Positions 9,021 to 34,361 of a stretch of DNA of 64,000 nucleotides are shown here, piece by piece (position 1 is the first letter of the stretch; each line of letters starts with the position of its first letter). The DNA comes from Lachnospiraceae bacterium. Lineage in GTDB: Bacteria; Bacillota; Clostridia; Lachnospirales; Lachnospiraceae. Made by a program: the position numbers and the translations under genes. The notes under the pieces are model-generated. The model was not told the DNA's origin and made no database searches. It worked only from the letters and a program-made list of their open reading frames with translations. Location of the stretch: the NCBI GenBank assembly GCA_017461045.1, contig JAFTZJ010000057.1:62001-126000 (forward strand), given 5' to 3'.

Positions 9021-10370
9021 ATGAAGGTTCAAATGCCGAAAGAGGCAAGATATATAATTGAAACACTGATGCAACACGGTTATGAAGCCTATATTGTAGG
9101 TGGCTGTGTCCGGGATAGTATTCTGGGAAAGGAACCCCAGGATTGGGATATTACCACCTCGGCAACGCCGGAGCAGACCAAGGCATTGTTTCGTCGAACT
9201 ATCGATACAGGAATTGAGCATGGTACTGTAACTGTAATGATGGATAAAGTTGGATATGAGGTGACTACCTATCGCGTGGATGGTAAGTATGAGGACCATC
9301 GAAGACCGAAGGAAGTTACATTTACCGCAAGTCTGCTGGAAGATTTGAAACGTCGGGATTTCACCATCAATGCTATGGCATATAATGATGTGGAAGGTAT
9401 TGTTGATGAATTCGACGGAATTGGTGATTTGCAAAAAGGAATTATCCGTTGTGTAGGAGTACCGCAAGAGCGATTTGATGAAGATGCATTACGAATTCTG
9501 CGGGCAGTACGATTTGCCGCCCAGTTAAATTTTGCAATCGAAGAGGAAACCTGTCAGGCAATTCGGGAGAAAGCGGAATTCCTGCGGGATATTAGTGCTG
9601 AACGGATTCAGGTAGAATTAACAAAATTGATTACTTCCCGGAATCCGGAACGGCTAATAAATGCATATGAGCTAGGTATCACCAAGATTGTGTTACCGGA
9701 ATTTGATGCCATGATGGAAACAGAACAGAACAATATACATCATTGCTACAATGTGGGCGAACATAGTGTGGAAGTAATGAAGCATATTGACCCACAACCG
9801 ATTTTACGTTGGGCAGCATTGCTTCATGATGTCGCAAAGCCGATGTGCAGAACCACAGATGAGACAGGCGTAGATCATTTTTACAATCATCAGAAAGAAG
9901 GTCGGCCAATCGCCCATAGGGTATTGCGTCGTATGAAGCTGGATAATGATACCATTCATACGGTAGAGCGTTTGGTGGAATGGCATGATTATGCTTTGGA
10001 TGGTAACATCACCAAGAAGTCATTGCGGAAAGCATTGAACCAAATGGGGCCGGATTTATTTGATAATTACCGAAAACTACGATGGGCAGACATGATGGGG
10101 CAAAGTGATTATCGTCGACAGGAGAAGATAGAAGCATATGAACGATTGGTTCAAATGCAGAAAGAAATTATGGATGCTTCCGAGTGTCTGTCTATAAAAG
10201 AATTAAAGATAGACGGTAAAAAATTAATCCAATTAGGTGTGCAACCGGGACCTGCAATGGGTGAAATACTGCACTATTTATTAGAACAGGTGTTAGAACA
10301 ACCGGAGTTGAATTCAGAAGAAATTCTAACTCAATTAGCATTGAAATATTATCAGGAACAAACACAGTAA
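9021..10370 (+). CDS. cca: CCA-adding tRNA nucleotidyltransferase with HD domain
   Basis: Adds or repairs the 3' CCA end of tRNAs. The N-terminal nucleotidyltransferase head has VGGCVRD, the metal-binding DWDI pair and RRDFTINAMAY; the RNA-binding helical region follows, then an HD phosphohydrolase-type segment with LLHDVAKP. Total 449 residues from the ATG at 9021, selected because GGAG (9010-9013) is seven bases upstream; earlier in-frame TTG (8988) and ATG (8991) have no SD. It follows proS by 42 bases, so the two tRNA genes are probably an operon. A terminator-like hairpin follows the stop codon by 10 bases. Confidence 0.95.
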   Translation: MKVQMPKEARYIIETLMQHGYEAYIVGGCVRDSILGKEPQDWDITTSATPEQTKALFRRTIDTGIEHGTVTVMMDKVGYEVTTYRVDGKYEDHRRPKEVTFTASLLEDLKRRDFTINAMAYNDVEGIVDEFDGIGDLQKGIIRCVGVPQERFDEDALRILRAVRFAAQLNFAIEEETCQAIREKAEFLRDISAERIQVELTKLITSRNPERLINAYELGITKIVLPEFDAMMETEQNNIHHCYNVGEHSVEVMKHIDPQPILRWAALLHDVAKPMCRTTDETGVDHFYNHQKEGRPIAHRVLRRMKLDNDTIHTVERLVEWHDYALDGNITKKSLRKALNQMGPDLFDNYRKLRWADMMGQSDYRRQEKIEAYERLVQMQKEIMDASECLSIKELKIDGKKLIQLGVQPGPAMGEILHYLLEQVLEQPELNSEEILTQLALKYYQEQTQ

Positions 10371-10397
10371 TAAACTTTTTCATCCCCTCATAAGATA
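10368..10397 (+). promoter_or_regulatory. Putative sigma-E-type sporulation promoter
   Basis: TAATAAA at 10368-10374, then 14 bases, then CATAAGAT at 10389-10396. This matches the B. subtilis sigma-E pattern as I recall it ([TG][AC]ATA[AT][AT]-N14-CATACAHT): full -35 match, 6 of 8 at -10. Transcription would start near 10403, in the loop of the hairpin described next, upstream of the CotS-like gene. Confidence 0.5.
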
Positions 10398-10431
10398 GAA
10401 CGTAGAAAGGCTTATGGGGGGATGATTTTTT
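10381..10431 (+). terminator. Terminator hairpin of cca whose right arm contains the SD of the next gene
   Basis: CATCCCCTCATAAG (10381-10394) pairs with CTTATGGGGGGATG (10411-10424) with a single G-U wobble, and is followed by a run of T's (10426-10431), a textbook intrinsic terminator. The right arm includes the G-rich Shine-Dalgarno sequence of the gene starting at TTG 10430, and the start codon lies in the T tract itself. It would therefore both end cca transcripts and mask the downstream SD in read-through RNA. Confidence 0.85.
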
Positions 10432-11419
10432 GTCTGACAAATTAGCAGAAGTATGGGAACAATATGATATGGAGGTAGTAAGTACCGGCAAGGGGCGTGG
10501 AATGACCATTTTGCGTACCGATAGAGGTGTTCGGGTGCTACAGCCATTTGTAACCTCAGAAAGCCGTTTGGAGCAGGAGGCCCTGTTAAAGGAAGCAATT
10601 TATCAGGCTGGTTATCGTTATATAGACCGATTTGTACGAAATCGGGAGGAAGAGTTAATTACCTGTGATCGTTACCATACACCCTTTGTGTTAAAGGAAT
10701 ATTTTGAGGGACGAGAGTGCAACATTCGTCAGGAAAGTGACATGATAGCGGCGGTAGAGAATTTGGCAAGGCTCCATTTGGTGCTTCAGAAAATAGAGAA
10801 TCCGGTTCATCAAAAAGAACTGAAGACCTTGTATTCCTTCCGAAGACATAATCAGGAATTGAAACGGGTTCGGGGATATATGCGACAGAAGCCAACCAAG
10901 TCAGAATTTGACTATTTATATTTGTCCTGTTATGAAACCTTCTATGGGCAAGCAGAAGAGGTGGTACGGGAACTGGAACAGGTGCAGGAGGGGTTGGTGA
11001 AGCGGCGATGGTTCTATTGTCATGGTGCGTATCATCAGCACAATGTTCTGATTCTAAAAGAAGGAATAGCAACTGTGAATTTCGAACGCTTTATGGTGGA
11101 TAATCAGCTGGTTGATTTGTACACCTTTCTTCGAAAAGCGATGGAGAAAAATGAATATCAGTGGGAGCTGTTATTCCGCTTGATTGAAGCTTATAGTAAG
11201 TATATGAATTTAGTGGAAGAAGACTACGTATTTCTATATTATTTACTTCGATATCCGGAGAAGTTTTGGAAAATATCCAATCAGTACAACAATATGAATA
11301 AGGCGTGGATACCGCCTAAGACTTATGAAAAGTTGCAGACAGTGATACGCCAGGATGCAATAAAACAACAATTATTGGAGCAATATGTTCGTCATTACGG
11401 TCTGAATTTACAAAAGTAA
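10430..11419 (+). CDS. CotS-like spore coat-associated kinase-fold protein
   Basis: A 329-residue member of the CotS/YtaA/YsxE group of aminoglycoside-phosphotransferase-fold proteins found in the spore coats of Bacillota. The N-terminus EQYDMEVVSTGKGRGMTIL fits that group's opening strands, and YCHGAYHQHNVL is the equivalent of the catalytic HGD-x4-N loop (HGAYHQHN), with the usual Asp replaced by Ala. Kinase activity is therefore doubtful. The only plausible start that keeps the family N-terminus is TTG 10430, eight bases after a G6 SD. A sigma-E-like promoter sits directly upstream, fitting mother-cell expression. Confidence 0.82.
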   Translation: MSDKLAEVWEQYDMEVVSTGKGRGMTILRTDRGVRVLQPFVTSESRLEQEALLKEAIYQAGYRYIDRFVRNREEELITCDRYHTPFVLKEYFEGRECNIRQESDMIAAVENLARLHLVLQKIENPVHQKELKTLYSFRRHNQELKRVRGYMRQKPTKSEFDYLYLSCYETFYGQAEEVVRELEQVQEGLVKRRWFYCHGAYHQHNVLILKEGIATVNFERFMVDNQLVDLYTFLRKAMEKNEYQWELLFRLIEAYSKYMNLVEEDYVFLYYLLRYPEKFWKISNQYNNMNKAWIPPKTYEKLQTVIRQDAIKQQLLEQYVRHYGLNLQK

Positions 11420-11463
11420 TACCTCGTGTTATACTGAATTGAAATAAAATAGCAGGTGGGAAC

Positions 11464-12831
11464 ATGAAAATACAAAAGAGTAGACAACAGAATATATGGA
11501 AGTTGATACCGGTATGCGTCCTATTAATGCTTTGTCTGACCGGATGTGAAAATCAAAAGCCAGAACCTACCACAGAAGCCTATGATCCATATGCCAGTGC
11601 GGTAGAGGAAACAGCTGTCATTCGGGACATTGATTTGGATGCAGGAACAATGTCATTTGTAGATATTGATGATGGAAAACTATACGAATTGCTTTATAAC
11701 AATGGCGTGGATGTTCGGAATAAGTATGATGAAATAATGTCAGGCAATCAACTGGAAGAAGGTCAGATTGTTGATATTGTGTACAATACAACGAATCAAA
11801 AGTTGTTGGAGATTCGTATTAATCCGGACGCATGGGAAGTTCGGGAAATATCCGGATTTGAATTCGATAAGGCGAATCGACAGGCAGAGATTTTGAATGA
11901 ATATTACAAATACACCAACGACCTTGTAATTGTTTCCAATGGTGAAATTATCGGTGTTAACGAAGTGTGTCGGGAAGATCAGGTAACTGCCAGAGGATAT
12001 GGCGGTAAGCTCTGCTCTGTCACAGTGGATTTGGGTCACGGATATGTAAAATTAGAGAATTACGATACCTACATAGGTGGTATGATTGAAATAGGTTATG
12101 ATGTAATTGTACCTGTAACTGAAGATATGCTGTTAACTGTTCGCGAGGGTGAATATAAGCTTAAAATCACCAAAGGCGAGCATAGTGGATATAAGAATAT
12201 TGTGGTGATTCGTGATGAGGAAAATGTGGTAAGTTTGCAGGAATTGCAGATTGCACCGGATCCGATTGGTACCTTATTCTTTGATGTAACACCGGCAGAT
12301 GCAAGGGTTATGATTGATGGTGAAACCATTGATACCAGTGAAACCATTGAACTAACTTATGGTAAACACCATATTCGAATAACCGCAGACGGATATGAGA
12401 CGAAGGCAGGTTATATTACGGTTAATGCAGCTTATAAGATATTTACGATTGAATTGGAGGGTGGAGATGAAGAGGATGATGACTCCGATTCCACAACCAG
12501 TAACAATTCGGAAATAACCAGCAGTAATAATTCGGAAGATTCCTCCCAAGATGACGATTCGGAAGATGGTGCAGCCACAACAGAATCCACCAGTAATACC
12601 ATAACCATCGAAAAGCCGGTAGGCGCTTATTGTTATGTGGATGGAGATTTAAAAGGAACCGTGCCTTGTACATTTGATAAGACACCGGGGAGTCATGTGG
12701 TGACCTTTAGCATGACCGGGTGCATGGTGAAAAGTTACACCATTACCTGTCAGGATAACGGACTAAATGATACCTATTCCTTTGATAATTTGCCCACCTA
12801 CGATTCTGTATTGTTTGAGGAAACGGAATAA
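11464..12831 (+). CDS. Secreted lipoprotein with PEGA domains
   Basis: An exported, lipid-anchored protein of 455 residues. The signal peptide ends in the lipobox CLTGC (Cys about residue 28). A PEGA domain is clear around residues 270-325 (FFDVTPADARVMIDG ... ITADGYE), and a second, shorter PEGA-like unit is at the C-terminus after an acidic Ser/Asn/Asp-rich linker (about 335-375). PEGA domains occur in surface proteins and are thought to be structural or wall-associated. The middle region (about 35-265) has no assigned family. SD: GCAGGTGGG before the ATG. A strong terminator follows. Confidence 0.85.
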   Translation: MKIQKSRQQNIWKLIPVCVLLMLCLTGCENQKPEPTTEAYDPYASAVEETAVIRDIDLDAGTMSFVDIDDGKLYELLYNNGVDVRNKYDEIMSGNQLEEGQIVDIVYNTTNQKLLEIRINPDAWEVREISGFEFDKANRQAEILNEYYKYTNDLVIVSNGEIIGVNEVCREDQVTARGYGGKLCSVTVDLGHGYVKLENYDTYIGGMIEIGYDVIVPVTEDMLLTVREGEYKLKITKGEHSGYKNIVVIRDEENVVSLQELQIAPDPIGTLFFDVTPADARVMIDGETIDTSETIELTYGKHHIRITADGYETKAGYITVNAAYKIFTIELEGGDEEDDDSDSTTSNNSEITSSNNSEDSSQDDDSEDGAATTESTSNTITIEKPVGAYCYVDGDLKGTVPCTFDKTPGSHVVTFSMTGCMVKSYTITCQDNGLNDTYSFDNLPTYDSVLFEETE

Positions 12832-12859
12832 TTAAAAGCAGAATAATAAAGAATTAGAG

Positions 12860-12919
12860 GAACACTCTGATATGAAAGCTGTTTGTTTGACAGATTGATA
12901 TCAGTAGTGTTCTTTTTTT
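12860..12919 (+). terminator. Intrinsic terminator after the PEGA lipoprotein gene
   Basis: GAACACT plus CTGATAT (12860-12873) pair with ATATCAG and AGTGTTC (ending near 12912) with one bulged T, followed by TTTTTTT. Confidence 0.85.
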
Positions 12920-12927
12920 GGCGAATA

Positions 12928-12964
12928 TTCGATAAAAACCGACGTCATTCGACGGGAATCGACG
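12928..12964 (+). promoter_or_regulatory. Four CGA boxes at exact 10-bp spacing upstream of agrB
   Basis: CGA occurs at 12930, 12940, 12950 and 12960; the seven-base boxes centred on them read TTCGATA, ACCGACG, TTCGACG and ATCGACG. The Spo0A box is TTCGACA, and Spo0A dimers bind tandem boxes 10 bp apart. The last box abuts a TTGAAA (12966-12971) that could be a -35. A LytTR-type regulator site is the alternative, but that family usually uses about 21-bp spacing. Confidence 0.5.
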
Positions 12965-13017
12965 TTTGAAAAAATCGAGCAAAACCAAATATGTGAAAAA
13001 CAGGGTCAATTATGTGG

Positions 13018-13042
13018 AAAGCCGGATAATTGGCTTTTTTTG
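13018..13042 (+). terminator. Short terminator-like hairpin in the agrB leader
   Basis: AAGCC (13019-13023) and GGCTT (13032-13036) with an eight-base loop, followed by a seven-T run and then, about 20 bases on, the agrB SD. It could be a weak attenuator between the putative operator and agrB. Confidence 0.45.
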
Positions 13043-13072
13043 TGCATAATTGTACAAGTAGGAGGGAAAAAG

Positions 13073-13657
13073 ATGACAGAACGAATTGCAAACAGAATAA
13101 CAAGAGAGCTTGTGGAGAATCAAATGATTCAGCCGGAGGCCCAAGAGTTCTACCAGTACTCGCTATTAGTTTTAATAGAGAAGATTATAGGTGTTACAGC
13201 GATTCTTTTGTTGGCTTTGTGGTTTCGATTACTACCCCAGACGATTGTGTTTATATTTTTCTTCTTTCGGATACGCAATCGAAGTGGTGGATTTCACCTG
13301 AATACCTTCGGTGGGTGCTTTGTTGGAACCTTGGCAGTCTATGTGATATATGCTCTATGGTTATACCCCTTACTACTGGATCATCCAATGGTAAATTATG
13401 GGATGCTGGGAATTGCAGCTGTATTGATTTTAGTGCTTGGAGCCGTAAATCATCCCAACATGGAATGGAGCAAGGAGGAATTCCTTGTAAGCAGACGAAT
13501 GGCAAGATTTACGGTTTTGTTAGAATTGCTCTGTATAGGAGTTTTTGTTTTCCTTCAGGGAGATGAAAGCTATATCCTATTCATGAGCTATGGAGTGATT
13601 TTAAGTGCCATCTTATTGGTGCTTGGAAAAATAATAAAACAGGAGGTAACATCATGA
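13073..13657 (+). CDS. agrB: AgrB-like accessory gene regulator protease
   Basis: Integral-membrane cysteine endopeptidase that cuts the C-terminal tail from the AgrD precursor and closes the thiolactone ring. The 194 residues include the AgrB signature GGFHLNTFGGC, giving His75 and Cys82 with the same seven-residue spacing as the catalytic pair of S. aureus AgrB, plus four to six hydrophobic helices. Start at ATG 13073 with AGGAGGG seven bases upstream. It overlaps agrD as ATGA, so the protease and its substrate are translationally coupled. Response regulator and sensor genes follow at 13937 and 14662. Confidence 0.94.
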   Translation: MTERIANRITRELVENQMIQPEAQEFYQYSLLVLIEKIIGVTAILLLALWFRLLPQTIVFIFFFFRIRNRSGGFHLNTFGGCFVGTLAVYVIYALWLYPLLLDHPMVNYGMLGIAAVLILVLGAVNHPNMEWSKEEFLVSRRMARFTVLLELLCIGVFVFLQGDESYILFMSYGVILSAILLVLGKIIKQEVTS

Positions 13658-13785
13658 AAAAGGTATTGTTATCAATGACTAAGAAAGTGGTTGAAGCAGA
13701 AGGCACTGTAGTGTCAGAATGGCCGCCAGGATGTGTTGGAATTTTACATCAGCCAAAGCGTCCGGTAAAGCCTGCAGTGAAGTAG
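13654..13785 (+). CDS. agrD: AgrD-like autoinducing peptide precursor (43 residues)
   Basis: A short frame starting at ATG 13654, overlapping the agrB stop, with AGGAGG nine bases upstream. The peptide has a basic, amphipathic N-terminus (MKKVLLSMTKKVVEAEG) and the segment SEWPPGCVGILHQPKRP, matching the clostridial AgrD pattern of a single Cys, four mostly hydrophobic residues, then a QP-x-x-P tail. By analogy the mature signal would be a five-membered thiolactone ring Cys27-Val-Gly-Ile-Leu31 with an N-terminal tail of unknown length. The ring and tail boundaries are inference. Confidence 0.9.
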   Translation: MKKVLLSMTKKVVEAEGTVVSEWPPGCVGILHQPKRPVKPAVK

Positions 13786-13795
13786 GTTCGGATAG

Positions 13796-13835
13796 AAAAG
13801 GAGGTTATGACAGGGAACTGTCATAGCCTCCTTTT
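13796..13835 (+). terminator. Intrinsic terminator after agrD
   Basis: AAAAGGAGG (13796-13804) pairs with CCTCCTTTT (13827-13835), extended inwards by TTATGACAG / CTGTCATAG. A second small hairpin (ACGGAA / TTCCGT followed by a T run) lies just after it at about 13845-13866. Confidence 0.85.
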
Positions 13836-13874
13836 CTGCAAATACGGAAGTTTTCCGTTTTTTTCAGAAAAGCA

Positions 13875-13903
13875 TTGCAAAGGAGGGAACAATTCGCCAT
13901 AAT
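13875..13903 (+). promoter_or_regulatory. Putative sigma-A promoter of the agrA/agrC-like operon
   Basis: TTGCAA (13875-13880), 17 bases, CATAAT (13898-13903). It lies between the agrBD terminator and the response regulator start at 13937, so the signalling pair appears to be transcribed separately from agrBD. Confidence 0.6.
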
Positions 13904-13936
13904 AATTAAGAGAATGACGAAAGAAGAGGTACAGAG

Positions 13937-14665
13937 ATGTTTCGTATAGCACTTTGCGATGATGAAGAGGAATACTTAGAACATGAAGAAAAATATATAA
14001 GTAAGTATCTGGATAAGCTGGATTTCGATTACAAGATTACGAAGTTCACCAATGGCTTTCAATTGGTGAATGCTATGTCCCAACCCCATGATTTTGATAT
14101 GATATTCTTAGACATAGATATGGCAGGGCTGAATGGAATTGAAACTGCCAAGCAGCTTCGTAAGGTTTCAGATGAAGTGTTCATTGTATTCGTGACCGCC
14201 TATGTGAATTACTCCATGGAGGGATATGAGGCAAGAGCCTTTCGGTACCTTCTTAAGACTAAGGATGACTTCAAGGTTCGTATGCGGGAATGTATGAATG
14301 CGATTATTCTGGAATATGACCGGAGGAAGAATTGTTATTTCTTCAGTTTTCGGGAAGGTATGGTTCAGTTGTTTGCAGATGAGATTCTCTATGTGGAAAG
14401 TGAGTTGCATGTGGTTACCTTCGTAGTATATCGGAACAATCAACTGGAACGGTTGACCCGGTACGTTGGCTTAAATGAGATTGAGGAAATGCTGAAGAAA
14501 AGTCTGTTCTGTAGAATCAGTCAAAGCTATCTGGTAAATATCCGGCACATTCTGCGTATGGAGGAGAATCAGGTCCAAATGCGGGATGGAACCTGGCTTC
14601 CTTTCTCCAAATCCCGAAAGGCAAAAGCAAAGGAAGCAATTTTAGGATATTGGGGTGAAGTATGA
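13937..14665 (+). CDS. AgrA-like LytTR-family response regulator
   Basis: A 242-residue two-domain regulator. The receiver domain has the acidic pocket (CDDEEE near the N-terminus), the phospho-acceptor Asp in IFLDIDMAG (about residue 57) and the conserved Thr/Lys region (FVTAY). The C-terminal LytTR DNA-binding domain (about 140-240) shows ILYVESELHVVTF and CRISQSYLVNIRHI. By position it should respond to the peptide made by agrBD, through the sensor encoded in the overlapping next gene. SD: AAGAGGT. LytTR proteins bind paired direct repeats; its target here is not certain. Confidence 0.92.
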   Translation: MFRIALCDDEEEYLEHEEKYISKYLDKLDFDYKITKFTNGFQLVNAMSQPHDFDMIFLDIDMAGLNGIETAKQLRKVSDEVFIVFVTAYVNYSMEGYEARAFRYLLKTKDDFKVRMRECMNAIILEYDRRKNCYFFSFREGMVQLFADEILYVESELHVVTFVVYRNNQLERLTRYVGLNEIEEMLKKSLFCRISQSYLVNIRHILRMEENQVQMRDGTWLPFSKSRKAKAKEAILGYWGEV

Positions 14666-15972
14666 TGTTTTTGCTTCATTGTTTATTTTCGGTTATTTGC
14701 TACACAATATATATGACAATTTATGCTAAAATTTTTCTTAAAAGAAGAAACAATAGTAGTCTAATAGCAATGCTATTGTATACATTTTCTATTTTTACAG
14801 TATTTGGATTGACTGTATCACTACATAGTAATCTTGTCTTGAAGGAGATTGGAATTATATTTGTCTTTTCAATATTTCTATGGCGTCTTTATGAAACGTC
14901 ATACTTAAAATCACTAGCACTAACTTTCCTATTTATCTGTGGTTGCATAGTTGCGGATTATGCAATACTGATTCTAATAATGTTAATAATGCCGGAAGGT
15001 AGTAATGCATTATTGGCTTCGACTATGGGAAGTAGTTTAGTAGAAGTATTTAGTGAATGTGTCCACTTATTGATTGTTATTATTTTGGTAAGATGTTTTA
15101 AGAAGCAAGATTCCAAATTATTAAGTACAATAGAATGGTTGCGTTTTGCGATTGTTCCGATTTGCACTTTGGGAATCATTATGGGATTGATGGTGGAATT
15201 TGATTTAGCAAAAGAGCAACAACAAGAAGCCATTTTCCTACTAATTGCCATTGGATTGGTAATTATGAACATTATCATTTATTTCCTGTTGAATGACATT
15301 ATTAAACGGGAAGCAATTTTGAGAAGAAATCAGATTTCAACAGAACGAACAAAGAATGAAATTAAACGTTATGAAAATTTGTCTGAGAACTATGAGAAGC
15401 AAAGAAAACTTCAACATGAATATAACCATCGCTTAAATAGTATAGCGGCATTGGCACGGGATGGCCAGATTGAAGAATTAAAGGAGTATTTGCACCGGCT
15501 GAATTATGAGGTTGGTGAATTGAATCGGGTATATGATTTTAAGAATACCATGCTGAACGCGCTTTTGAATGCGAAGGAGCATGAGATGCACAGGAAGGGA
15601 ATCACATTTATTATATTTAGTATGAATTTGGATAATCTTCCTATCTATAATGAAGATCTTGTAGTGATTTTAGAGAATCTATTGAACAACGCTATGGAAG
15701 CTTGTGAGGAATGCGAAGATAAGGTGGTTAAACTAAAAATCACAGAGGATGACAGAGGAACCTTGCTGGCAGTCGAGAATACATATGTAACCGCACCGAT
15801 TAAGGTTGGCGATAAGTTCATTACAACGAAGAATGAAAACCGTGATTTCCATGGCATTGGTATTGAAAATGTAAAGGATGTTGTTGAAAAGTATCATGGA
15901 GAAACAATGATTAATGTATTTGAAGACGTATTTCGTTTTACAATACGATTACCACAAATAACAGAGGATTAG
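14662..15972 (+). CDS. AgrC-like sensor histidine kinase (GHKL ATPase)
   Basis: A 436-residue membrane kinase, overlapping the response-regulator stop codon by four bases (ATGA). The N-terminal half is six or so hydrophobic helices, the usual AgrC peptide-sensing region. The dimerisation helix carries the likely phospho-acceptor in QHEYNHRLNS (about residue 252), and the ATP-binding domain has the N box NLLNNAMEACE and the G box GIGIENV. The GHKL type and the absence of a HAMP domain fit AgrC/ComD-type peptide receptors. An intrinsic terminator follows. Confidence 0.92.
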   Translation: MMFLLHCLFSVICYTIYMTIYAKIFLKRRNNSSLIAMLLYTFSIFTVFGLTVSLHSNLVLKEIGIIFVFSIFLWRLYETSYLKSLALTFLFICGCIVADYAILILIMLIMPEGSNALLASTMGSSLVEVFSECVHLLIVIILVRCFKKQDSKLLSTIEWLRFAIVPICTLGIIMGLMVEFDLAKEQQQEAIFLLIAIGLVIMNIIIYFLLNDIIKREAILRRNQISTERTKNEIKRYENLSENYEKQRKLQHEYNHRLNSIAALARDGQIEELKEYLHRLNYEVGELNRVYDFKNTMLNALLNAKEHEMHRKGITFIIFSMNLDNLPIYNEDLVVILENLLNNAMEACEECEDKVVKLKITEDDRGTLLAVENTYVTAPIKVGDKFITTKNENRDFHGIGIENVKDVVEKYHGETMINVFEDVFRFTIRLPQITED

Positions 15973-15995
15973 AAAAATATGTTCTAATAAAAGAA

Positions 15996-16025
15996 AGAAG
16001 GCACCAAAGCGGTGCCTTCTTTTTG
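15996..16025 (+). terminator. Intrinsic terminator after the agrC-like gene
   Basis: AGAAGGCACC (15996-16005) pairs with GGTGCCTTCT (16011-16020), followed by a T run. Confidence 0.93.
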
Positions 16026-16094
16026 CATGGGTGTGTGGTATGGATATGATATATAATTATGACGATAAATAATAAATAAATATTTACAAAACTA

Positions 16095-16122
16095 TTGACA
16101 AATCAAATGTAGAATGTATAAT
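16095..16122 (+). promoter_or_regulatory. Consensus sigma-A promoter
   Basis: TTGACA at 16095-16100 and TATAAT at 16117-16122 with a 16-base spacer: both hexamers match consensus fully. It drives the coiled-coil gene, whose ATG is about 90 bases from the expected start point. Confidence 0.88.
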
Positions 16123-16216
16123 CGATAGTACAGCACGTTTCGTGCAATAGGGGACAAATCGTAATGGAAAATGTTGGATGGATTGTTTGTACTGGGCATA
16201 GGAAAGGAGGGCTAGT

Positions 16217-16567: not shown

Positions 16568-16573
16568 TAAGAT

Positions 16574-18336: not shown

Positions 18337-18339
18337 AAA

Positions 18340-19218
18340 ATGGAAAAACTTAGTAACCCACAAGTAACAATTGAAACCATAAAGAAATATGGATTTGATT
18401 TTCAGAAAAAGTTCGGACAGAATTTCTTAATCGATGCACATGTATTAGAGAAAATCATGGATGCGGCTGAGATTACAAAGGAGGACTGTGTATTGGAAAT
18501 CGGGCCGGGAATCGGTACTATGACACAGTACTTGGCAGAACGGGCAAAGAAGGTTATTGCAGTTGAAATTGACAACAACCTAATACCGATTCTGAAGGAG
18601 ACCTTAGGTGCTTATGATAATGTTCGAGTGATTAATGAAGATATATTAAAGCTGGATATAGAAACCTTGGTAAAGGAGGAGAATCAAGGAAAGCCAATTA
18701 AAGTGGTTGCGAATCTTCCTTACTATATTACGACGCCTATTATCATGGGTTTGTTTGAGCAACATGTGCCATTGGAAAATATTACAGTCATGGTACAAAA
18801 AGAAGTGGCAGACCGTATGCAGGTAGGTCCGGGAACGAAGGATTATGGGGCACTATCTCTGGCAGTACAGTACTATGCAAAACCGTACATTGTTGCCAAT
18901 GTACCGCCGAATTGCTTTATTCCCCGGCCTAATGTAGCATCCGCAGTAATTCGTTTAACCCGTTACCAGGATCCGCCGGTAAAGGTGCAGAACGAGAAGT
19001 TGATGTTCCAATTGATTCGGGCGTCCTTTAATCAGAGAAGAAAAACTCTGGTAAACGGCATTGGAAACGCACCGGATGTTCCATTTACAAAGGAGCAAAC
19101 GGCAAAGGCATTAGAACAAATGGGATTCAGTGCTACGATTCGCGGTGAAGCATTGAACCTGGAGGAATTTGCAAGGCTAAGTGATGTATTAAGTACACTT
19201 GTAGAAGCAGAAGAATAA
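18340..19218 (+). CDS. rsmA: 16S rRNA dimethyladenosine transferase
   Basis: Dimethylates two adjacent adenosines in the 3'-terminal helix of 16S rRNA during 30S maturation. The 292-residue protein has the SAM-binding motif LEIGPGIGTMTQYLAE (about residues 50-65), AVEIDNNLIP, and the catalytic NLPYYITTPI (NLPY). The start FGQNFLIDAHVLEKI region is typical for KsgA. It is coupled to tatD. The gene downstream begins within a long hairpin that would follow the rsmA stop by about 35 bases. Confidence 0.96.
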   Translation: MEKLSNPQVTIETIKKYGFDFQKKFGQNFLIDAHVLEKIMDAAEITKEDCVLEIGPGIGTMTQYLAERAKKVIAVEIDNNLIPILKETLGAYDNVRVINEDILKLDIETLVKEENQGKPIKVVANLPYYITTPIIMGLFEQHVPLENITVMVQKEVADRMQVGPGTKDYGALSLAVQYYAKPYIVANVPPNCFIPRPNVASAVIRLTRYQDPPVKVQNEKLMFQLIRASFNQRRKTLVNGIGNAPDVPFTKEQTAKALEQMGFSATIRGEALNLEEFARLSDVLSTLVEAEE

Positions 19219-19249: not shown

Positions 19250-19279
19250 ACATAACATGTCCCATCTCTTCATATGATA
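19250..19279 (+). promoter_or_regulatory. Putative sigma-E-type sporulation promoter inside a hairpin
   Basis: ACATAAC (19250-19256), 14 bases, CATATGAT (19271-19278). The spacing matches the sigma-E pattern exactly, with 6 of 8 at -10 and the central ATA at -35. The expected start point, near 19285, falls in the loop of the hairpin that masks the downstream SD. Confidence 0.45.
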
Positions 19280-19324
19280 GAATAGAATGTTTTTCTATAT
19301 TATCAAGAAGGGGTGGGACATGTT
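19254..19324 (+). promoter_or_regulatory. Long hairpin that sequesters SD and start codon
   Basis: AACATGTCCCATCTCTTC (19254-19271) pairs with GAAGGGGTGGGACATGTT (19307-19324) through 18 positions with two G-U pairs; inner GATAGAATAGA pairs imperfectly with TCTATATTATC. The right arm contains the SD and the ATG at 19320. Confidence 0.75.
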
Positions 19325-20330
19325 GGATTATAGGCGTTTTATTTCTTATCTATATAGCTATGTGGAAGGTGAAAAGGGAGTGAATGTGGGATACATACGT
19401 TGCGAACAGCGACAAGGGAACTGCCGATTCACATTAAATCTACTAGACCGTCAAGGCATCGAAGGTGGGCGGTATAAGGTGTATTTGTATAAAATAAATG
19501 AAGAAGAACGGCCCATTGGATATTATCTGGATGAGATACTTATCCGCAGATGCAACGCAGAGCTACGGAAGCAAACCAGTAGTGAAAATGTGTGGAATAC
19601 GAATCATAGACTGGAAGATTTTGATGGAGTAATTGCAATTTATGATAAAGACCATATGTATGTCAGTCAGTGGAGTGACGAACCAATGCAGCTTTCCCAA
19701 TTTCAGACTTATCGGGAATGGCAGCAGCAAAGAGTGCCGGAACAGCCGGTTTATCAAAAAGAAAGCGAAGGTTTGGCATTGCATGCGGTGGAGTTGAAAA
19801 CGGTGGAACTAGCGACGGAATTAATGCGTGAATTATCCGAAGAATGCAAGGAAGAAAGGGAAGGAAACTATAAGCCGGCATCTGAAGTAACGGATATTGC
19901 AGCAATGAATTCTGAAGCAATGAATTCTGAGGCGATGGAATCCAAAGTAATGGAGCCTATGCGGAAACCTATATCGGATGCTACTCTTCGGTTAATGGAA
20001 AGTCGTACGAAACTTCCGGATTTTGAAAATCATGAAATTTACGATTGCGTGCGAATTGTACCTAATGATATTGGGCTTTTGGAAATGGAGAATTGGAGGC
20101 TGGGGGTCAATAGCTTTTTGACCCATGGTTACTATAATTATAAGTATTTAATGCTAGGGAAATTACGGTTTCAAGACGGAGTGGTAAAAGCGGTGCTGGG
20201 AGTGCCTGGAGTATATGACAATAAAGAACAGTACATTGCCAAAATCTTTGGTTTTGAAGTATTCGTTCCGGTCAAGCATACCAATATTAAAACCGGAAAT
20301 TTTGGTTATTGGATTGTAGAACTGGTATAA
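19320..20330 (+). CDS. Conserved hypothetical protein, probably sporulation-linked
   Basis: A soluble 336-residue protein that I recognise only as a Lachnospiraceae-type conserved protein (perhaps DUF6128). The N-terminal about 110 residues (LDYRRFISYLYSYVEGEKG, GYIRCEQRQGNCRFTLN) look like a beta-rich domain; the C-terminal about 110 residues (IYDCVRIVPNDIGLLEMENW ... TGNFGYWIVEL) form a second conserved block. The linker holds two copies of MNSEA and is acidic. The SD and ATG lie inside a hairpin, behind a sigma-E-like promoter, so mother-cell expression is inferred. ATG 19320 is preferred over 19287, which has no SD. The last 25 bases overlap the opposing GNAT gene. Confidence 0.72.
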   Translation: MLDYRRFISYLYSYVEGEKGVNVGYIRCEQRQGNCRFTLNLLDRQGIEGGRYKVYLYKINEEERPIGYYLDEILIRRCNAELRKQTSSENVWNTNHRLEDFDGVIAIYDKDHMYVSQWSDEPMQLSQFQTYREWQQQRVPEQPVYQKESEGLALHAVELKTVELATELMRELSEECKEEREGNYKPASEVTDIAAMNSEAMNSEAMESKVMEPMRKPISDATLRLMESRTKLPDFENHEIYDCVRIVPNDIGLLEMENWRLGVNSFLTHGYYNYKYLMLGKLRFQDGVVKAVLGVPGVYDNKEQYIAKIFGFEVFVPVKHTNIKTGNFGYWIVELV

Positions 20331-26836: not shown

Positions 26837-26975
26837 AGAAAAAATATAAATCGCGATTATTAGCTACATAGAATAGTATAAAATATCATGTAGTAAAAAG
26901 TCAATAATTCTAAAAGAGTAGTTGACGAAATGTAGCAATTGTAGTAATGTGAAACTGTAATTATATAAGATACTT

Positions 26976-27108: not shown

Positions 27109-27124
27109 GATTTGACCAGCATTC

Positions 27125-27150
27125 AAGTCCGATTATTTCGGACTTTTTCT
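27125..27150 (+). terminator. Riboswitch-controlled terminator
   Basis: AAGTCCGA (27125-27132) and TCGGACTT (27138-27145), followed by T's. When SAM is bound this hairpin should form and stop transcription before metK; without SAM an antiterminator using P1 3' sequence would compete. Confidence 0.88.
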
Positions 27151-27221
27151 TATGTAAGAGAAGATATTAGCCATTGGGCAAAAGGAACATGTACAAAAGC
27201 AGTGAAAGAATGGAGGAACAC

Positions 27222-28409: not shown

Positions 28410-28464
28410 AATCAGCAAGTTAATAAATGTTGAAAATATCTGTACGACGAAAGGAATGGCGGAT

Positions 28465-29339: not shown

Positions 29340-29345
29340 ATGATG

Positions 29346-29559
29346 TATAAATTGTGTTTATCTGTATGTGGGAATGTGGTCGCAGCGAATGAGCATATGT
29401 GTTCCTGCAAAGACCGTAGAAGCACGTCGGCACTTAGGCTGCGTTTTTGGCAGCCTTATGTACCGCTACGTGCTGGCCAGAGCGCAAGCGTGTCTGGCAG
29501 GAATACATATGTCTCGAAGCTGCGTTGTAGATATTCGAACAGACAAACCACAATTTATA
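29346..29559. repeat. 214-bp imperfect inverted-repeat element (MITE-like or structured leader RNA)
   Basis: The ends TATAAATTGTG (29346-29356) and CACAATTTATA (29549-29559) are perfect 11-base inverted repeats. Further nested pairings follow inward: GCAGC/GCTGC, CATATGTGTTCCTGC with GCAGGAATACATATG (one G-U), AGCACGT/ACGTGCT, and a central GGCTGC/GCAGCC hairpin, plus a side hairpin CCAGA/TCTGG. The element fills nearly the whole gap between ispE and the FadR-type gene, ending 16 bases before the latter's ATG. It contains no credible gene. Confidence 0.8.
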
Positions 29560-29575
29560 ACAGAAAGGTGAACAG

Positions 29576-30283
29576 ATGGAATTAAAGTTTGATGTAAATG
29601 AATATTTGCCCCTACGGGATGTGGTATTCCAGACCTTGCGTCAGGCAATTATTACCGGAGAAATCGGTCCCGGCGAACGTCTGATGGAGATTCCTTTGGC
29701 GAAGAAGCTGGGTGTGAGCCGGACGCCGGTTCGTGAAGCGATTCGTATGCTGGAATTGGAGGGCTTGGTAGTGATGATTCCTCGTCGGGGCGCAGAAGTG
29801 GCTCGCATTACAGAGAAGGATTTGCGAGATGCACTTGAGGTGCGTTGTGCCTTGGAGGAGCAGGCTGTAGTATTAGCTTGTCAGCGGATTACCAAAGAAG
29901 GAAAAGAAAAACTGAAAGCAGTTTGTATTGCCTTCCGGGAAGCAATTAGTACCAAGCATGTTCCGTCTATTGTGGACAGTGATGTGGCATTCCATGATGC
30001 GATTTTAGAAGCGACCCAGAACCAGCGATTGATTACGATTACCCATAATCTGTGGGAGCAGGTATATCGCTATCGGGTAGAATATGTAAAGGACTTCAGT
30101 TACCACGATGTTCTGGTAAGTGAGCATGATGCAATCACCAACGCCATTCTTCTTGGAGATGTAGAACAAGCAAGAGCAGTCATGCGAAAGCACATATACA
30201 ATCAGGAAGCCATTGTGATTACCAATGTTCAAAGTCAGATTGATAATCAAAGCGTAATACATTCAGAAAATGATTTTAATTAG
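29576..30283 (+). CDS. GntR/FadR-family transcriptional regulator
   Basis: A 235-residue regulator: winged helix at about residues 15-80 (FQTLRQAIITGEIGPGERL, KKLGVSRTPVREAIRMLELEGLV) and an all-helical FCD ligand-binding domain (about 85-215) with the expected metal/ligand positions (DVAFHDAILEAT, SEHDAITNAIL). FadR-subfamily proteins usually sense acyl-CoA or organic acids. SD AAAGGTG. The long inverted-repeat element directly upstream may separate or modulate its expression. Target genes are not evident nearby; the next gene has its own sporulation-type promoter. Confidence 0.92.
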   Translation: MELKFDVNEYLPLRDVVFQTLRQAIITGEIGPGERLMEIPLAKKLGVSRTPVREAIRMLELEGLVVMIPRRGAEVARITEKDLRDALEVRCALEEQAVVLACQRITKEGKEKLKAVCIAFREAISTKHVPSIVDSDVAFHDAILEATQNQRLITITHNLWEQVYRYRVEYVKDFSYHDVLVSEHDAITNAILLGDVEQARAVMRKHIYNQEAIVITNVQSQIDNQSVIHSENDFN

Positions 30284-30310
30284 GAAATTGATTTCTGTAA
30301 TTATAAAATC

Positions 30311-30340
30311 GAATAATTCAAAGAAACCTCACACATACTA
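30311..30340 (+). promoter_or_regulatory. Putative sigma-G promoter of the germination operon
   Basis: GAATA (30311-30315), an 18-base spacer, and CATACTA (30334-30340) match the B. subtilis sigma-G consensus as I recall it (GHATR-N18-CATNHTA) at every specified position. gerA-type operons are sigma-G-dependent in B. subtilis. Start point near 30347, at the base of the right arm of the hairpin. Confidence 0.65.
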
Positions 30341-30363
30341 TAAAAAATGTGTGAGGTTTTTTT
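30326..30363 (+). terminator. Terminator hairpin overlapping the sigma-G -10 and the gerA SD
   Basis: AAACCTCACACAT (30325-30337) pairs with ATGTGTGAGGTTT (about 30347-30359), followed by a seven-T run that ends at the gerA ATG. The SD GAGG (30353-30356) is in the right arm; CATACTA overlaps the left arm and loop. It terminates read-through from the FadR-type gene. Confidence 0.9.
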
Positions 30364-31872
30364 ATGGAACAATTATACAATTCTAGTCATGAAATAATTG
30401 CGAAGCTAAGTTCGAATTTAAAGGAAAACATAGCAATAATTGAAACGCTGTTCCGGGATTGCGATGATGTTGTGAAGAAAGAGTTCCAATTCATACGCGG
30501 AAGCCAAAGGATTTCTGCGTATATGGTATACATTGATGGATTGGTTGATACCGAAATGATACAAGATAATGTAATCGCACCCCTGCAAGAAAAAGAGCCC
30601 GTCTTGCAGGAAGATGTGTTTGCCTCTTTTTTTCATAGCGAAATTGACGCGGCAGATATACGAGAGGATTCCAACTTTGATTCGCTGGTGAACAGCATTT
30701 TGAGAGGGGATACCGTTCTGTTTTTAGACGGGTATGCAAAAGTGATTGTTATATCCAGTAAGAAGCTGCCTATCCGAACCATACAGGAATCCAAGACAGA
30801 AGCAGTTATGCGAGGGCCAAGGGATAGTTTTAACGAAAGTGTCCGAATCGGTACCGCATTGATCCGACGACGCATTAAAGATCCGAAATGTAAGGTTGTA
30901 CAGGATAAATTTGGAGAACGTTCCCGTACTGATTATGCGTTGGTATATATGGAGGATTTGGTTCCGGACGGCTTGGTGGAACAGGTAAAAGCAGAGTTAA
31001 ATGCATACAAAACCGATGCTATATATGACAGCGGTATGCTGGAGCATTTTATGAATCGGAAATGGTACTCGCCATTTCCGGTAATTCAGAGTACTGAACG
31101 ACCGGATAAAGTGGCGGCCTCCGTACTGGAAGGACGGGTAGCAATAGTGGTGGATAATTCGCCGGAGGTTCTGTTATTGCCGGCAACCTTTAATACATTT
31201 TTTCAGGCATCCGACGACTATTACACCCAGTGGTCAGTAGCTTCATTTGCCAGAATTCTACGATACATTGCTTCGATTCTGGCCATAGGACTTCCGGGAT
31301 TTTATATAGCAATTACCAGTTTTCATTTGGAAATGCTTCCGACGGAATTGTTGCTTGCCATTGCACAAGCCAGAAGTAGTATCACCTTTCCGGTAGTACT
31401 AGAAGTGCTTTTAATTGAATTGGAATTCGAATTACTTCGGGAAGCAGGAATCCGCTTGCCGGGACCTATGGGAAATACCATCGGAATTGTAGGCGGTTTG
31501 ATTGTGGGACAAGCGGCAGTGGAAGCAGGCTTGGTCAGCACGATTGTAGTAATTGTAGTTGCTCTTGCTGCACTGGCATCCTTTACCATTCCAAATGAGA
31601 GCTTTGCATCTGCCTACCGGTTGTTGAAATTCTTCTTAATAGCCCTGAGTGCAGTATGGGGATTGTATGGATTTGTGTTGGGAATGTTGGTTCTTGCTGT
31701 TCATTTGTCAGGACTTACCAGCTTTGGAGTTCCGTATATGACTCCGGCAGTATCCGCAAACGGACAGTATGAAAGCATCAAAGACTTTATCCTGCGACTT
31801 CCGATTTACACCATGAAAAAGCGACCAATATTCACCAAAGAAGGACAACGAAATCGCATGCGGAGGTTATAA
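30364..31872 (+). CDS. gerA: GerA-family spore germination protein (A subunit)
   Basis: The A subunit of a nutrient germinant receptor, or a SpoVAF-like relative, in the spore inner membrane. The 502-residue protein has an N-terminal soluble two-lobe domain (about 1-240) and a C-terminal membrane domain of about five helices (about 290-430), with the family's conserved PGFYIAITSFHLEMLPTELL and GPMGNTIGIVGGLIVGQAAV. The ATG immediately follows the T tract of the upstream hairpin, with GAGG seven bases before. gerB starts two bases after the stop. Expressed in the forespore by inference from the sigma-G-like promoter. Confidence 0.93.
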   Translation: MEQLYNSSHEIIAKLSSNLKENIAIIETLFRDCDDVVKKEFQFIRGSQRISAYMVYIDGLVDTEMIQDNVIAPLQEKEPVLQEDVFASFFHSEIDAADIREDSNFDSLVNSILRGDTVLFLDGYAKVIVISSKKLPIRTIQESKTEAVMRGPRDSFNESVRIGTALIRRRIKDPKCKVVQDKFGERSRTDYALVYMEDLVPDGLVEQVKAELNAYKTDAIYDSGMLEHFMNRKWYSPFPVIQSTERPDKVAASVLEGRVAIVVDNSPEVLLLPATFNTFFQASDDYYTQWSVASFARILRYIASILAIGLPGFYIAITSFHLEMLPTELLLAIAQARSSITFPVVLEVLLIELEFELLREAGIRLPGPMGNTIGIVGGLIVGQAAVEAGLVSTIVVIVVALAALASFTIPNESFASAYRLLKFFLIALSAVWGLYGFVLGMLVLAVHLSGLTSFGVPYMTPAVSANGQYESIKDFILRLPIYTMKKRPIFTKEGQRNRMRRL

Positions 31873-31873
31873 C

Positions 31874-33571
31874 ATGGAAGTATCACAATATCGCATTTCG
31901 CCAAAGCAGTTGCGCCGAATGATTATTTTGGAAACCGGTTCGATTGGGTGTTTGTTTGTAACTCTTTGGTCGGGAGAACGAAATGGAATTCTAACTGTCA
32001 TGATGGCGGTGATTGGAAGCTTGGTTTATGGTGGAATTCTCATGGCAATCGGACGGGCAGACGGTGGTTATTTCTCTATGACCGAGCGGTCAATGGGTGG
32101 ATTTCTGGGGCGAGTTATCTGGTTGATTTATGCGTTGCGTTTTGCAATTCGGGGAGCATGGATATTGGCATATGCGGAGCATTTAATACGGGAAACCTTG
32201 TTTGAGGGCTCCCGATTCATGATTATCATTCCTCTTATGCTGGTGTGTGCATATGCCGGATTGCGGAATCTGCAGGGACGTGCCAGGTTCGTGGAATTGC
32301 TGTTCTGGTGGGTGGTTCTGCCGTTAGTTTTATTGTTTCTGGTTGGATTGTGGAAAGCAGATATTATAAATGTACTGCCAAAGGAGCCCATTCAGGTACG
32401 GGAATTACTTGTGGGTGATTATCGGCTAATGGTGTTATTTCTGCCATTGGAATTATTGCTGTTTCGTATGTCTGCATTAGAAGGGGGCAATCAAAAGGCT
32501 TGGGTAGCCGGAATGAAAGGCGTTTTGCTTTCCGGACTTTGGTTGCTACTAGTGTATGTTGTAACAGTTGGCATTGTTGGATTGCATTGGGGGCACCGTT
32601 CCTTGCTTGTGGTTACAGATGCCATGGAATTGATTACTATACGGGGCGGCGGAATGGAGCGATTGGATATCCTGATGATTCTGTTTTGGCTGGTAGGAAC
32701 CGTTGTGACCTTAAGTGCATATTTGTTTCAAGGCCAGCAGCTATTGCGGAGAACCTTTCCGTTTGGCAGTCGCTATGGAGTGGCAACCCTGTGGATGACC
32801 TTGGCGATTGTAGCAATTTATTTTAGCTTCGAATCCGCACAGGAATGGACGGATTGGTATTTACGATATGCTTGCGTAATTGACTTCCCGATTTCCATTG
32901 TATTGCCATTGATAATCTGGATTGTCTATCGGTTTCGAAGCAGGCATGAACGACGATTACGTCAGAATAAGGAGCAAGCAGTTAAAGTATTTACCGGTTG
33001 TTTATTGTTAGTGGTTACCTTGCTTGGTTTAACCGGGTGTAGCCAACAAGCCTCTTTAGAGGATCGGACTTATGTGGAAGAGATTCATATATCACCAATT
33101 ATGGGAGGGTATGAATACCGATGTACTTTGGCATATATGGATAAACAATCTATGGATACCCTTGGAAAGGGTGAGAACACCGGAGGAACCTTAGAGCAGG
33201 GGAGCGGACAGGATAAGAGTCAAAGTGGTTCCCAGGGAAATGAGCAAAGTAGCGGTCAGAATAGTGCACAGGGAAATGGACAAGAGACCACAAGTGGGAA
33301 AGCCTCGGAAGAATATACGGCAACAGCAGAAGAAATCGATGACTTTAATCGGGAATATACAAGAGTTACCGGAAGTGTGTTGGATTACTCTCATTTACAG
33401 GGGATTTATTTGGCAGAGAATTTATACCAACCGGAAGCTGCAGAAGATGTGTTAGAGGATATTCGGGAAGAAACACAGGCGGTGCTTTCGACTCCCATTT
33501 ATCAGGAAGGTTTAGAAATCGGCGAACAGAAAAAAGAAACGCTGGGAGACTGGTTGCGGGAAATTCAATAG
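31874..33571 (+). CDS. gerB: GerB-family germination permease fused to a GerC-like lipoprotein domain
   Basis: Residues 1-355 form the ten-helix amino-acid-permease-like GerB subunit (RISPKQLRRMIILE ... FRMSALEGGN). After a basic loop (about 356-368) comes a second export-type hydrophobic stretch with a perfect internal lipobox LLGLTGC (Cys 389), then a soluble domain resembling the first part of GerC (EDRTYVEEIHISPIMGGYEY, EYTRVTGSVLDYSHLQGIYLAENLY) with a Gln/Ser/Gly-rich linker (about 430-470). Normal operons encode GerC separately, at about 350-400 residues. Here there is no stop, SD or ATG between the parts, so this is a true fusion with a shortened C subunit. The lipobox may still be processed. 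Confidence 0.9.
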   Translation: MEVSQYRISPKQLRRMIILETGSIGCLFVTLWSGERNGILTVMMAVIGSLVYGGILMAIGRADGGYFSMTERSMGGFLGRVIWLIYALRFAIRGAWILAYAEHLIRETLFEGSRFMIIIPLMLVCAYAGLRNLQGRARFVELLFWWVVLPLVLLFLVGLWKADIINVLPKEPIQVRELLVGDYRLMVLFLPLELLLFRMSALEGGNQKAWVAGMKGVLLSGLWLLLVYVVTVGIVGLHWGHRSLLVVTDAMELITIRGGGMERLDILMILFWLVGTVVTLSAYLFQGQQLLRRTFPFGSRYGVATLWMTLAIVAIYFSFESAQEWTDWYLRYACVIDFPISIVLPLIIWIVYRFRSRHERRLRQNKEQAVKVFTGCLLLVVTLLGLTGCSQQASLEDRTYVEEIHISPIMGGYEYRCTLAYMDKQSMDTLGKGENTGGTLEQGSGQDKSQSGSQGNEQSSGQNSAQGNGQETTSGKASEEYTATAEEIDDFNREYTRVTGSVLDYSHLQGIYLAENLYQPEAAEDVLEDIREETQAVLSTPIYQEGLEIGEQKKETLGDWLREIQ

Positions 33572-33577
33572 TCCATT

Positions 33578-33605
33578 GTATAAATCACTTGCAAATGGAA
33601 ATAAT
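33578..33605 (+). promoter_or_regulatory. Putative sigma-F promoter of spoIIR
   Basis: GTATA (33578-33582), 14 bases, GGAAATAAT (33597-33605). The -10 fits the sigma-F pattern (GGHRAR-type) well; the spacer is about one base short of the usual 15. spoIIR is sigma-F-dependent in B. subtilis. The expected start point near 33611 is at the loop of the following hairpin. Confidence 0.5.
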
Positions 33606-33628
33606 CTCCATAAAGAAGTGGAGGTTAT
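33601..33628 (+). promoter_or_regulatory. Hairpin sequestering the spoIIR SD
   Basis: ATAATCTCCAT (33601-33611) pairs with GTGGAGGTTAT (33618-33628) across a six-base loop, with two G-U wobbles. The SD GGAGG (33620-33624) is in the right arm. A transcript started at the sigma-F-like promoter would lack the left arm. Confidence 0.6.
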
Positions 33629-33632
33629 GAAT

Positions 33633-34361
33633 ATGAATCTATATAAAACAGCATTGTCTGCGTTGTTGCTTGCACCGGTGGTTGGCGGCATAGGCATTCA
33701 CTCTATACAACAATATCAAGCCATGAAGGAGCAGGCAGAGGCACTAACTATGCAAACAGAGCAGAGCATTTTGGAGGTGGAAACTCTGCTAAATGATGAA
33801 TTAGATGAGGAAAATATATTTGCAAGTAACGTGGCAAATGAAGTGATACGCTTTCATGTGCGGGCCAATTCTGATTCGGAGGAAGACCAAGCGTTAAAAC
33901 TATTGGTACGGGACGCCATTCTTTCGGAGTTGGGAACGGAGCTTGCACTGGCAGAATCCAAGGAAGATGCAAGAACAATCATGGAAGACAACCTAACACG
34001 CATTGAGGAAATCGGGGCAACGGTTATTAAGGAAGCCGGCTATGACTATGAGATAAATGCTTATATGACAGTAGAAGAATTTCCGATGAAAGCCTATGGA
34101 GATTTGATGTTTCCGGCCGGAGAATATGAAGCCCTTCGGGTAGATATCGGTAATGAAAACGGAGGCAACTGGTGGTGTGTTATGTATCCGGGATTGTGTT
34201 TCGTAGATACGGTTGGCGGTGTGGTTGCCACAGATGGAAAAGAAGAAATGCAACAGGTATTAACACCGGAGGATTATGAGAAATTACTATTCTCTCCTGA
34301 TGAAGATACAGAAATAGAATATCGCAGCTTAATATGGGATGCATGGTTTCGGAACTCGTGA
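33633..34361 (+). CDS. spoIIR: Stage II sporulation protein R
   Basis: Secreted forespore signal that activates SpoIIGA processing of pro-sigma-E. The 242-residue protein has an N-terminal hydrophobic export segment (YKTALSALLLAPVVGG) and the family hallmarks FHVRANSDSEEDQALKLLVRDA (about residues 70-90), FPMKAYGDLMFPAGEYEALRV and NWWCVMYPGLCFVD. ATG 33633 gives an eight-base SD spacing; ATG 33627 also is in frame, at three bases. It follows gerB by 61 bases but has its own sigma-F-like promoter. Confidence 0.94.
   Translation: MNLYKTALSALLLAPVVGGIGIHSIQQYQAMKEQAEALTMQTEQSILEVETLLNDELDEENIFASNVANEVIRFHVRANSDSEEDQALKLLVRDAILSELGTELALAESKEDARTIMEDNLTRIEEIGATVIKEAGYDYEINAYMTVEEFPMKAYGDLMFPAGEYEALRVDIGNENGGNWWCVMYPGLCFVDTVGGVVATDGKEEMQQVLTPEDYEKLLFSPDEDTEIEYRSLIWDAWFRNS

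Follow-up and report, generated by a model that had tools for sequence, protein, structure and literature searches.

Genes for IS10-like transposases carry an inverted repeat that masks the Shine-Dalgarno (SD) sequence only in RNA entering from outside promoters, and the gene in that case belongs to a mobile element rather than to a developmental programme. Among phages, passages of two reports describe an SD hairpin with the late promoter in its 5' part for the T4 late genes e (lysozyme), I-TevI and segB and for mobE of phage Aeh1; in these the long upstream RNAs fold the SD into the hairpin, with a repression of 100-fold measured for gene e, and RNA from the late promoter misses the 5' arm and is translated (PMC3014915, PMC2988022). 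For the Bacillus subtilis sporulation gene sigG (spoIIIG), a passage of PMC5942855 proposes that a hairpin of 20+ bp blocks translation of read-through RNA from spoIIG, and RNA from PsigG cannot form this hairpin. Here we analyze a stretch of 64,000 nucleotides (nt) from Lachnospiraceae bacterium GCA_017461045.1 (contig JAFTZJ010000057.1, 62,001-126,000 of the forward strand; hereafter the window), in which cotS, a gene of unknown function at 19320, gerA and spoIIR are each preceded by a hairpin, the left arm of which overlaps a sporulation-type promoter motif or abuts it.

At these genes, here and in many relatives, the SD can pair with the promoter region of the same gene, and we consider it likely that RNA reading through from upstream would silence itself while RNA from the promoter would stay translatable. 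Compared with the passages on T4, which concern phage genes and phage late promoters with measured repression, the effect here is predicted, involves several sigma factors and is partly fused with a terminator. The passage on B. subtilis deals with one gene, sigG, whereas here cotS, yabP, spoIIQ, spoIIR and gerA carry the hairpin and the sigG genes scored in this genus do not.

All four window genes run in the same direction as their upstream neighbor, across gaps of 59-101 nt, and in folds of upstream-initiated RNA a stable hairpin takes up the SD, the start codon or both in its 3' arm in every case. A sequence-only reading of the window had described a hairpin with the SD in its right arm and a sporulation-type promoter at each of these genes, with transcription beginning in the loop or right arm. 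Folding recovered all four (p 0.003-0.023, against 300 controls in which the upstream DNA was dinucleotide-shuffled and the SD left in place), and the starts predicted from the promoter motifs fall where that reading had placed them. The placement of the SD in the right arm is part of the search definition, and promoters were scored with general consensus sequences and weights of our own, independent of any matrix in PMC517825 or PMC7438776, both of which were consulted.

The features of the four loci all lie on the + strand. At the first junction, cca (CCA tRNA nucleotidyltransferase, vegetative-type, 8988..10370; NCBIfam NF009814, over cut-off) precedes a cotS-family spore coat gene with a TTG start (10430..11419; TIGR02906 at 156.5 bits, under the cut-off of 172.7). 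The putative cotS promoter (10368..10396) has a -35 box TAATAAA at 10368-10374, which overlaps the stop codon of cca, a 14-nt spacer and a -10 box CATAAGAT at 10389-10396. The hairpin (10380..10425; p = 0.003) has a 15-bp stem with arms at 10380-10394 and 10411-10425, the right one containing the SD GGGGGG, and the predicted transcription start near 10403 lies in its loop. Right after the stem follows a terminator-like T6 run (10426-10431) that covers the first bases of the TTG start. The second junction joins ksgA/rsmA (vegetative-type, 18340..19218; TIGR00755, over cut-off) to the gene of unknown function with a C-terminal DUF6128 (19320..20330; PF19623). Its candidate sigma E/K-type promoter (19250..19278) consists of ACATAAC at 19250-19256 and CATATGAT at 19271-19278; the hairpin (19253..19325; p = 0.003) has a 19-bp stem with arms at 19253-19271 and 19307-19325, SD and start codon both in the right arm and no T-run after the stem, and the predicted start near 19285 falls in the loop.

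Upstream of gerA (30364..31872; PF03323, 581.6 bits), whose closest named records encoding a relative are metagenome-assembled genomes of uncultured Lachnospiraceae or Clostridium, lies a GntR/FCD-type regulator gene (29576..30283; PF00392, PF07729). The predicted sigma G-type promoter (30311..30340; score 1.00) comprises GAATA at 30311-30315, an 18-nt spacer and CATACTA at 30334-30340. Its hairpin (30320..30363; p = 0.003) has a 17-bp stem with arms at 30320-30336 and 30347-30363 and the SD GAGG in the right arm, whose first base is the predicted start near 30347; a terminator-like T7 run extends up to the ATG. The neighbor of spoIIR (33633..34361; TIGR02837, over cut-off) is a gerB-like spore permease-type gene (31874..33571; PF03845, over cut-off). 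Here the predicted sigma F-type promoter (33578..33606; score 0.95) is formed by GTATA at 33578-33582, a 14-nt spacer and GGAAATAATC at 33597-33606, and the hairpin (33601..33628; p = 0.023) by an 11-bp stem with arms at 33601-33611 and 33618-33628, the right one carrying GGAGG as SD; the predicted start near 33613 is in the loop, and the stem has no T-run after it.

Sigma types E, E, G and F had been assigned to the four genes in the above order. The motif matches at gerA and spoIIR are of types G and F, and cotS and 19320 score higher as sigma K than as sigma E: 0.90 against 0.87 for TAATAAA-14-CATAAGAT, and 0.90 against 0.83 for ACATAAC-14-CATATGAT, the sigma E values being hand-computed with the same weights. 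For cotS we nevertheless prefer sigma E as the probable factor, because among the hairpin-bearing cotS genes of relatives 37/38 keep the 14-nt spacer and 30/38 the ATA core at -35.

Within the window 49 starts were scored, and the geometry occurs with a stem of -10 or better at the four noted genes; the other 45 lack it, as had been claimed, with a weak borderline case at 6387 (stem -8.6, promoter 0.89). The screen was extended to 924,400 bases including the window, roughly half of the assembly, in which a simple script called 808 genes, 715 of them with an SD and enough upstream DNA to be scored. The geometry was defined as a sigma E/F/G/K match of at least 0.88 with its start inside the hairpin, most of the stem being missing from the shortened RNA. 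Under an initial rule, by which transcription had to begin ahead of the SD, spoIIQ and yabP went undetected; the rule was relaxed once SpoIIQ had been spotted by eye, and the shuffle controls used the relaxed form. SD-arm stems reach -8 or better at 52 starts and -10 or better at 29; nine of the 52 have the full geometry, seven of them at -10, namely cotS, 19320, gerA, spoIIR, yabP, spoIIQ and sipL. Fifty shuffled sets gave a mean of 1.04 and a maximum of 4 at these thresholds (0.88/-10). At 0.88/-8, nine were observed against a shuffled mean of 1.8, and at 0.9/-10 five against 0.24, cotS and 19320 falling just under the line.

Six of the seven match sporulation families, YabP and SpoIIR exceeding NCBIfam cut-offs, SipL and GerA exceeding those of Pfam, and CotS and SpoIIQ falling under curated cut-offs; SpoIIQ is identified by an M23 peptidase domain together with a match that is weak (41.5 against 250 bits). 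Among 30 random starts, at most one was sporulation-like (CwlD-like, below cut-off) and eight had no family match. The bias toward spore genes expected by the sequence-only reading is thus borne out by this screen.

Within the genus, hairpins at p <= 0.03 precede cotS in 8/8 members, spoIIR in 7/7, spoIIQ in 7/8, 19320 in 6/7, yabP in 6/8 and gerA in 5/7, with gerA of G002 (L038) uncounted since its 5' part sits in a separate match. The left arm at spoIIQ is the spacer between -35 and -10 of a predicted sigma F promoter that scores 1.0 in 8/8 members. The loop at spoIIR has grown to about 40 nt in G003 and to more than 100 nt in G002 (loci L005 and L007), both arms remaining intact, and the arms TAATCTCTGCT/AGCAGAGGTTA in G002 and TAATCTCCAT/ATGGAGGTTA in G007 differ on both sides jointly at several pairs. 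At 19320 the pair CATG/CATG has become CTTG/CAAG in G001 and G002. Covariation can accordingly be seen by eye in single orthologues of spoIIR and 19320, and gerA hardly varies. Start-anchored counts of paired changes were discarded, because one-base shifts between orthologues create false double changes.

Outside the genus, where a hairpin was called at p <= 0.03 with a stem of -8 or better, 105 cotS loci were examined, mostly one per genus, made up of a first set of 22 and of those further cotS places that had a locus or were among 60 fetched; 104 were usable, L268 being at a contig end. Significant SD-arm hairpins were found at 35/79 loci with cca upstream and at 3/25 without it (Fisher p = 0.004). 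The best promoters of the 38 hits share a CATA -10, which the scan nearly required; 37 have a 14-nt spacer and 30 the ATA core at -35, and for 37 transcription is predicted to begin inside the hairpin, ahead of the right arm or at it. For the remaining genes, hairpins in other genera number 9/22 for yabP, 9/22 for sipL, 5/14 for spoIIQ, 4/23 for spoIIR and 4/22 for gerA; eight of 30 spoIIQ loci were excluded from this scoring because the match began far from the N terminus. The background under the same rule is 28/715 own-genome starts, the seven genes included, and 10/288 neighboring starts in the fetched loci, these ten including yabP itself, yabQ and two PrcB-type genes related to one near sipL. 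The SD-arm hairpins of such PrcB-type lipoprotein genes near sipL are at L189:3908-4324 (-17.4) and L199:3154-3561 (-21.3), both on the minus strand; this genome's own relative, likewise near sipL (L123:7465-7926), scores 0.96 for sigma E but lacks a hairpin. As a genus-wide case sipL was rejected, with a hairpin in 2/8 members yet in 9/22 of other genera, and gerA was rejected as a family-wide one, given its four matches in 22 outside the genus and none with a qualifying promoter.

Whether the pairing itself co-varies was addressed by a swap test, in which each promoter region was paired with its own SD region or, by permutation, with that of another genome. For cca-cotS in 79 genomes outside the genus, cognate pairs averaged -15.2 and swapped pairs -11.1 kcal/mol, and none of 5000 permutations was as low; for cotS without cca, the values were -10.1 and -9.5 kcal/mol (629/5000). 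If conserved motifs alone were responsible, a promoter should pair equally well with the SD of another genome, which at cca-cotS it does not, and since kinship between genomes improves swapped pairs, the test is conservative in that respect. No preferential pairing was found at cca-cotS between the -10 region and codons 2-9 (338/2000), nor between DNA 28-50 nt further upstream and the SD (1443/2000). The 44 cca-linked cotS loci that are not hits individually co-vary as a group (z -6.9). With wider segments compared, yabP (30 loci), sipL (30) and sigG (24) each gave 0/5000, and random starts of the same genome gave no swap effect (z 0.2 and -0.5). To judge from these comparisons between genomes, the promoter-SD pairing is under selection; the DNA itself shows that the two regions are complementary and in register with promoter motif and SD, that this recurs at spore genes and that it co-varies between genomes.

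For sporulation, each protein must be made at the right phase and in the right compartment, and it is common for a spore gene to sit just downstream of an otherwise-timed one. A polymerase arriving from upstream would copy both arms and make an RNA with the SD paired in the hairpin and likely hidden, and where a U-tract follows (cotS, gerA), read-through transcription would probably end as well. One starting at the internal sporulation promoter would copy too little of the left arm, leaving the SD open for translation. Since the right arm sits downstream of the promoter, termination could not stop the promoter from being crossed, and its effect would be to keep the gene unexpressed. The purpose would be to prevent synthesis of a spore protein at the wrong phase or in the wrong cell. 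A vegetative-type neighbor would be the unwanted source at cotS, 19320, gerA and yabP, and the germination operon at spoIIR. The sequence-only reading had named vegetative upstream genes throughout, which fits cotS, 19320 and gerA and fails at spoIIR, which lies behind gerA and the spore permease gene. As these are germination genes, the separation at spoIIR would be one of early and late spore programmes, not of growth and sporulation, with read-through presumably late in the forespore. In all of this, the existence of read-through RNA, the sites of transcription start, the block of translation or end of transcription, and the purpose of the arrangement are what we infer from the DNA.

Ordinary intrinsic terminators, or 3'-end stabilizers, of the upstream genes would offer a simpler account, in which the overlap comes from short gaps and SD masking has no role of its own. 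The hairpins of cotS and gerA do resemble intrinsic terminators in their G+C-rich stem and T-run and are the sole terminator-like structures in their gaps, TTTT ends the right arm in 15/38 cotS hits, and these hits associate with a same-strand cca upstream. Unlike in intrinsic terminators, however, the stem or T-run here takes in SD and start codon, and many members have no T-run, among them 23/38 cotS hits and spoIIR and 19320 here; moreover, the covariation is specific to the promoter region and the SD region, and at spoIIQ and spoIIR the left arm is promoter spacer or -10 sequence. We regard this account as unlikely on balance. Stable stems between co-directional genes can also be cut or leak, and the hairpins might thus serve as sites for RNase III or other processing, or as tuned attenuators that pass some upstream RNA for low, controlled vegetative expression. 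Cutting of a stem would not account for a promoter placed in the left arm or loop at several genes that are unrelated, and we find such a role distinctly improbable.

That the geometry arises by chance, short promoter motifs and G-rich SDs yielding hairpins when these are sought, appears hardly tenable. It draws on the short spoIIR stem, on short motifs scored with our own weights, and on the roughly one genome hit in seven expected by chance; arm swaps between genomes, however, weaken the pairing though the motifs stay, and random starts of the same genome show no such effect. For cotS, yabP and sipL as groups the swap tests refute chance, and single genes could still owe their geometry to it.

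Several observations weigh against the reading that the SD is paired with its promoter for the purpose of self-silencing. About one of the seven genome hits may be due to chance, because the shuffled sets average 1.04. In the half-genome screen, spoVT, with a full sigma G match, carries no such hairpin, nor do several starts with strong sporulation-type promoter matches, and sigG has none in the seven genomes of this genus scored and 3/25 in the whole set, from which L234 was dropped for want of a usable start and L221 for its place at a contig edge. A universal rule for spore genes is ruled out by these cases, the geometry being present at only 7/715 starts. The three sigG genes with an SD-arm hairpin (L211, L212, L236) belong to other genera and are reminiscent of B. 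subtilis sigG. Among the individual genes, the -35 box of 19320 is poor, and its stem has a 94-nt loop in G007 and in G003 shows up only by RNAfold; the stem of spoIIR is modest and short; the gerA hairpin is absent in G005 and weak in G007; and sipL has the hairpin in only 2/8 genus members, though the promoter is kept. Beyond the genus, 44/79 cca-linked cotS loci are individually non-significant, a qualifying promoter accompanies 2/4 spoIIR hits and 0/4 gerA hits, and the yabP and sipL hits are counted by hairpin, irrespective of promoter geometry. The shortened RNA retains an SD stem in cotS of L309 (-18.4) and spoIIR of G002 (-10.2).

The swap tests, too, have less favorable sides. With the wider segments the control of cotS without cca is weakly positive (z -2.2, 91/5000), and spoIIQ reaches only z -2.3 (74/5000) as against 0/5000 with narrower ones. 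Swaps of yabP and spoIIQ within the genus alone are near z -2. The 288 neighbor starts show a small effect of -0.63 kcal/mol (z -4.5), compared with -4 to -5 kcal/mol for cotS, yabP and sipL.

Some further structures were seen along the way. At 15990-16025 of the window an ordinary terminator-like repeat with a T-run follows the gene ending at 15972, and no SD is overlapped. A tyrosine-recombinase gene of the phage integrase family (L131:18529-19455, minus strand) has an SD-arm hairpin of -17.4 with no sporulation-type promoter inside, perhaps a read-through protection of a mobile element. On the same locus and strand, a MerR-type regulator gene with weak similarity to RacA (L131:6639-7325) has its SD covered by a terminator-like hairpin (-20.1) that contains no qualifying promoter. 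A gene for 287 amino acids without a family match (L123:18444-19307) is preceded by a large inverted repeat (-23.1) and its T-run; its sigma F match is only 0.80.

Given the precedents in T4 late genes and B. subtilis sigG, the kind of device is already known. The sequence-only reading knew of no general description, and our search of the open-licence literature found none of such a spore-gene design either; single cases had been described, as the passages in PMC5942855, PMC3014915 and PMC2988022 attest. What is new is that the device recurs over several Lachnospiraceae spore genes and sigma factors, that it is partly fused with a terminator, and that it has stayed conserved at defined junctions despite turnover of the sequence. 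The observation is better founded than the earlier reader could show, and less universal and less unprecedented than was claimed.

It is about as likely as not that sporulation promoters in Lachnospiraceae, and perhaps in all endospore formers, carry a second message, in that the -10 region or the spacer is the complement of the SD; a polymerase crossing such a promoter would make a self-silencing RNA, isolating vegetative, mother-cell and forespore programmes in a gene-dense genome. The idea of an off-switch encoded in the promoter can be tested gene by gene. If it is true, promoters would be under a further sequence constraint that is missing from promoter models, co-transcription in RNA sequencing data would not equal expression, and the trick known from T4 and proposed for one Bacillus gene would turn out to recur throughout the spore genes of a large family of the gut.

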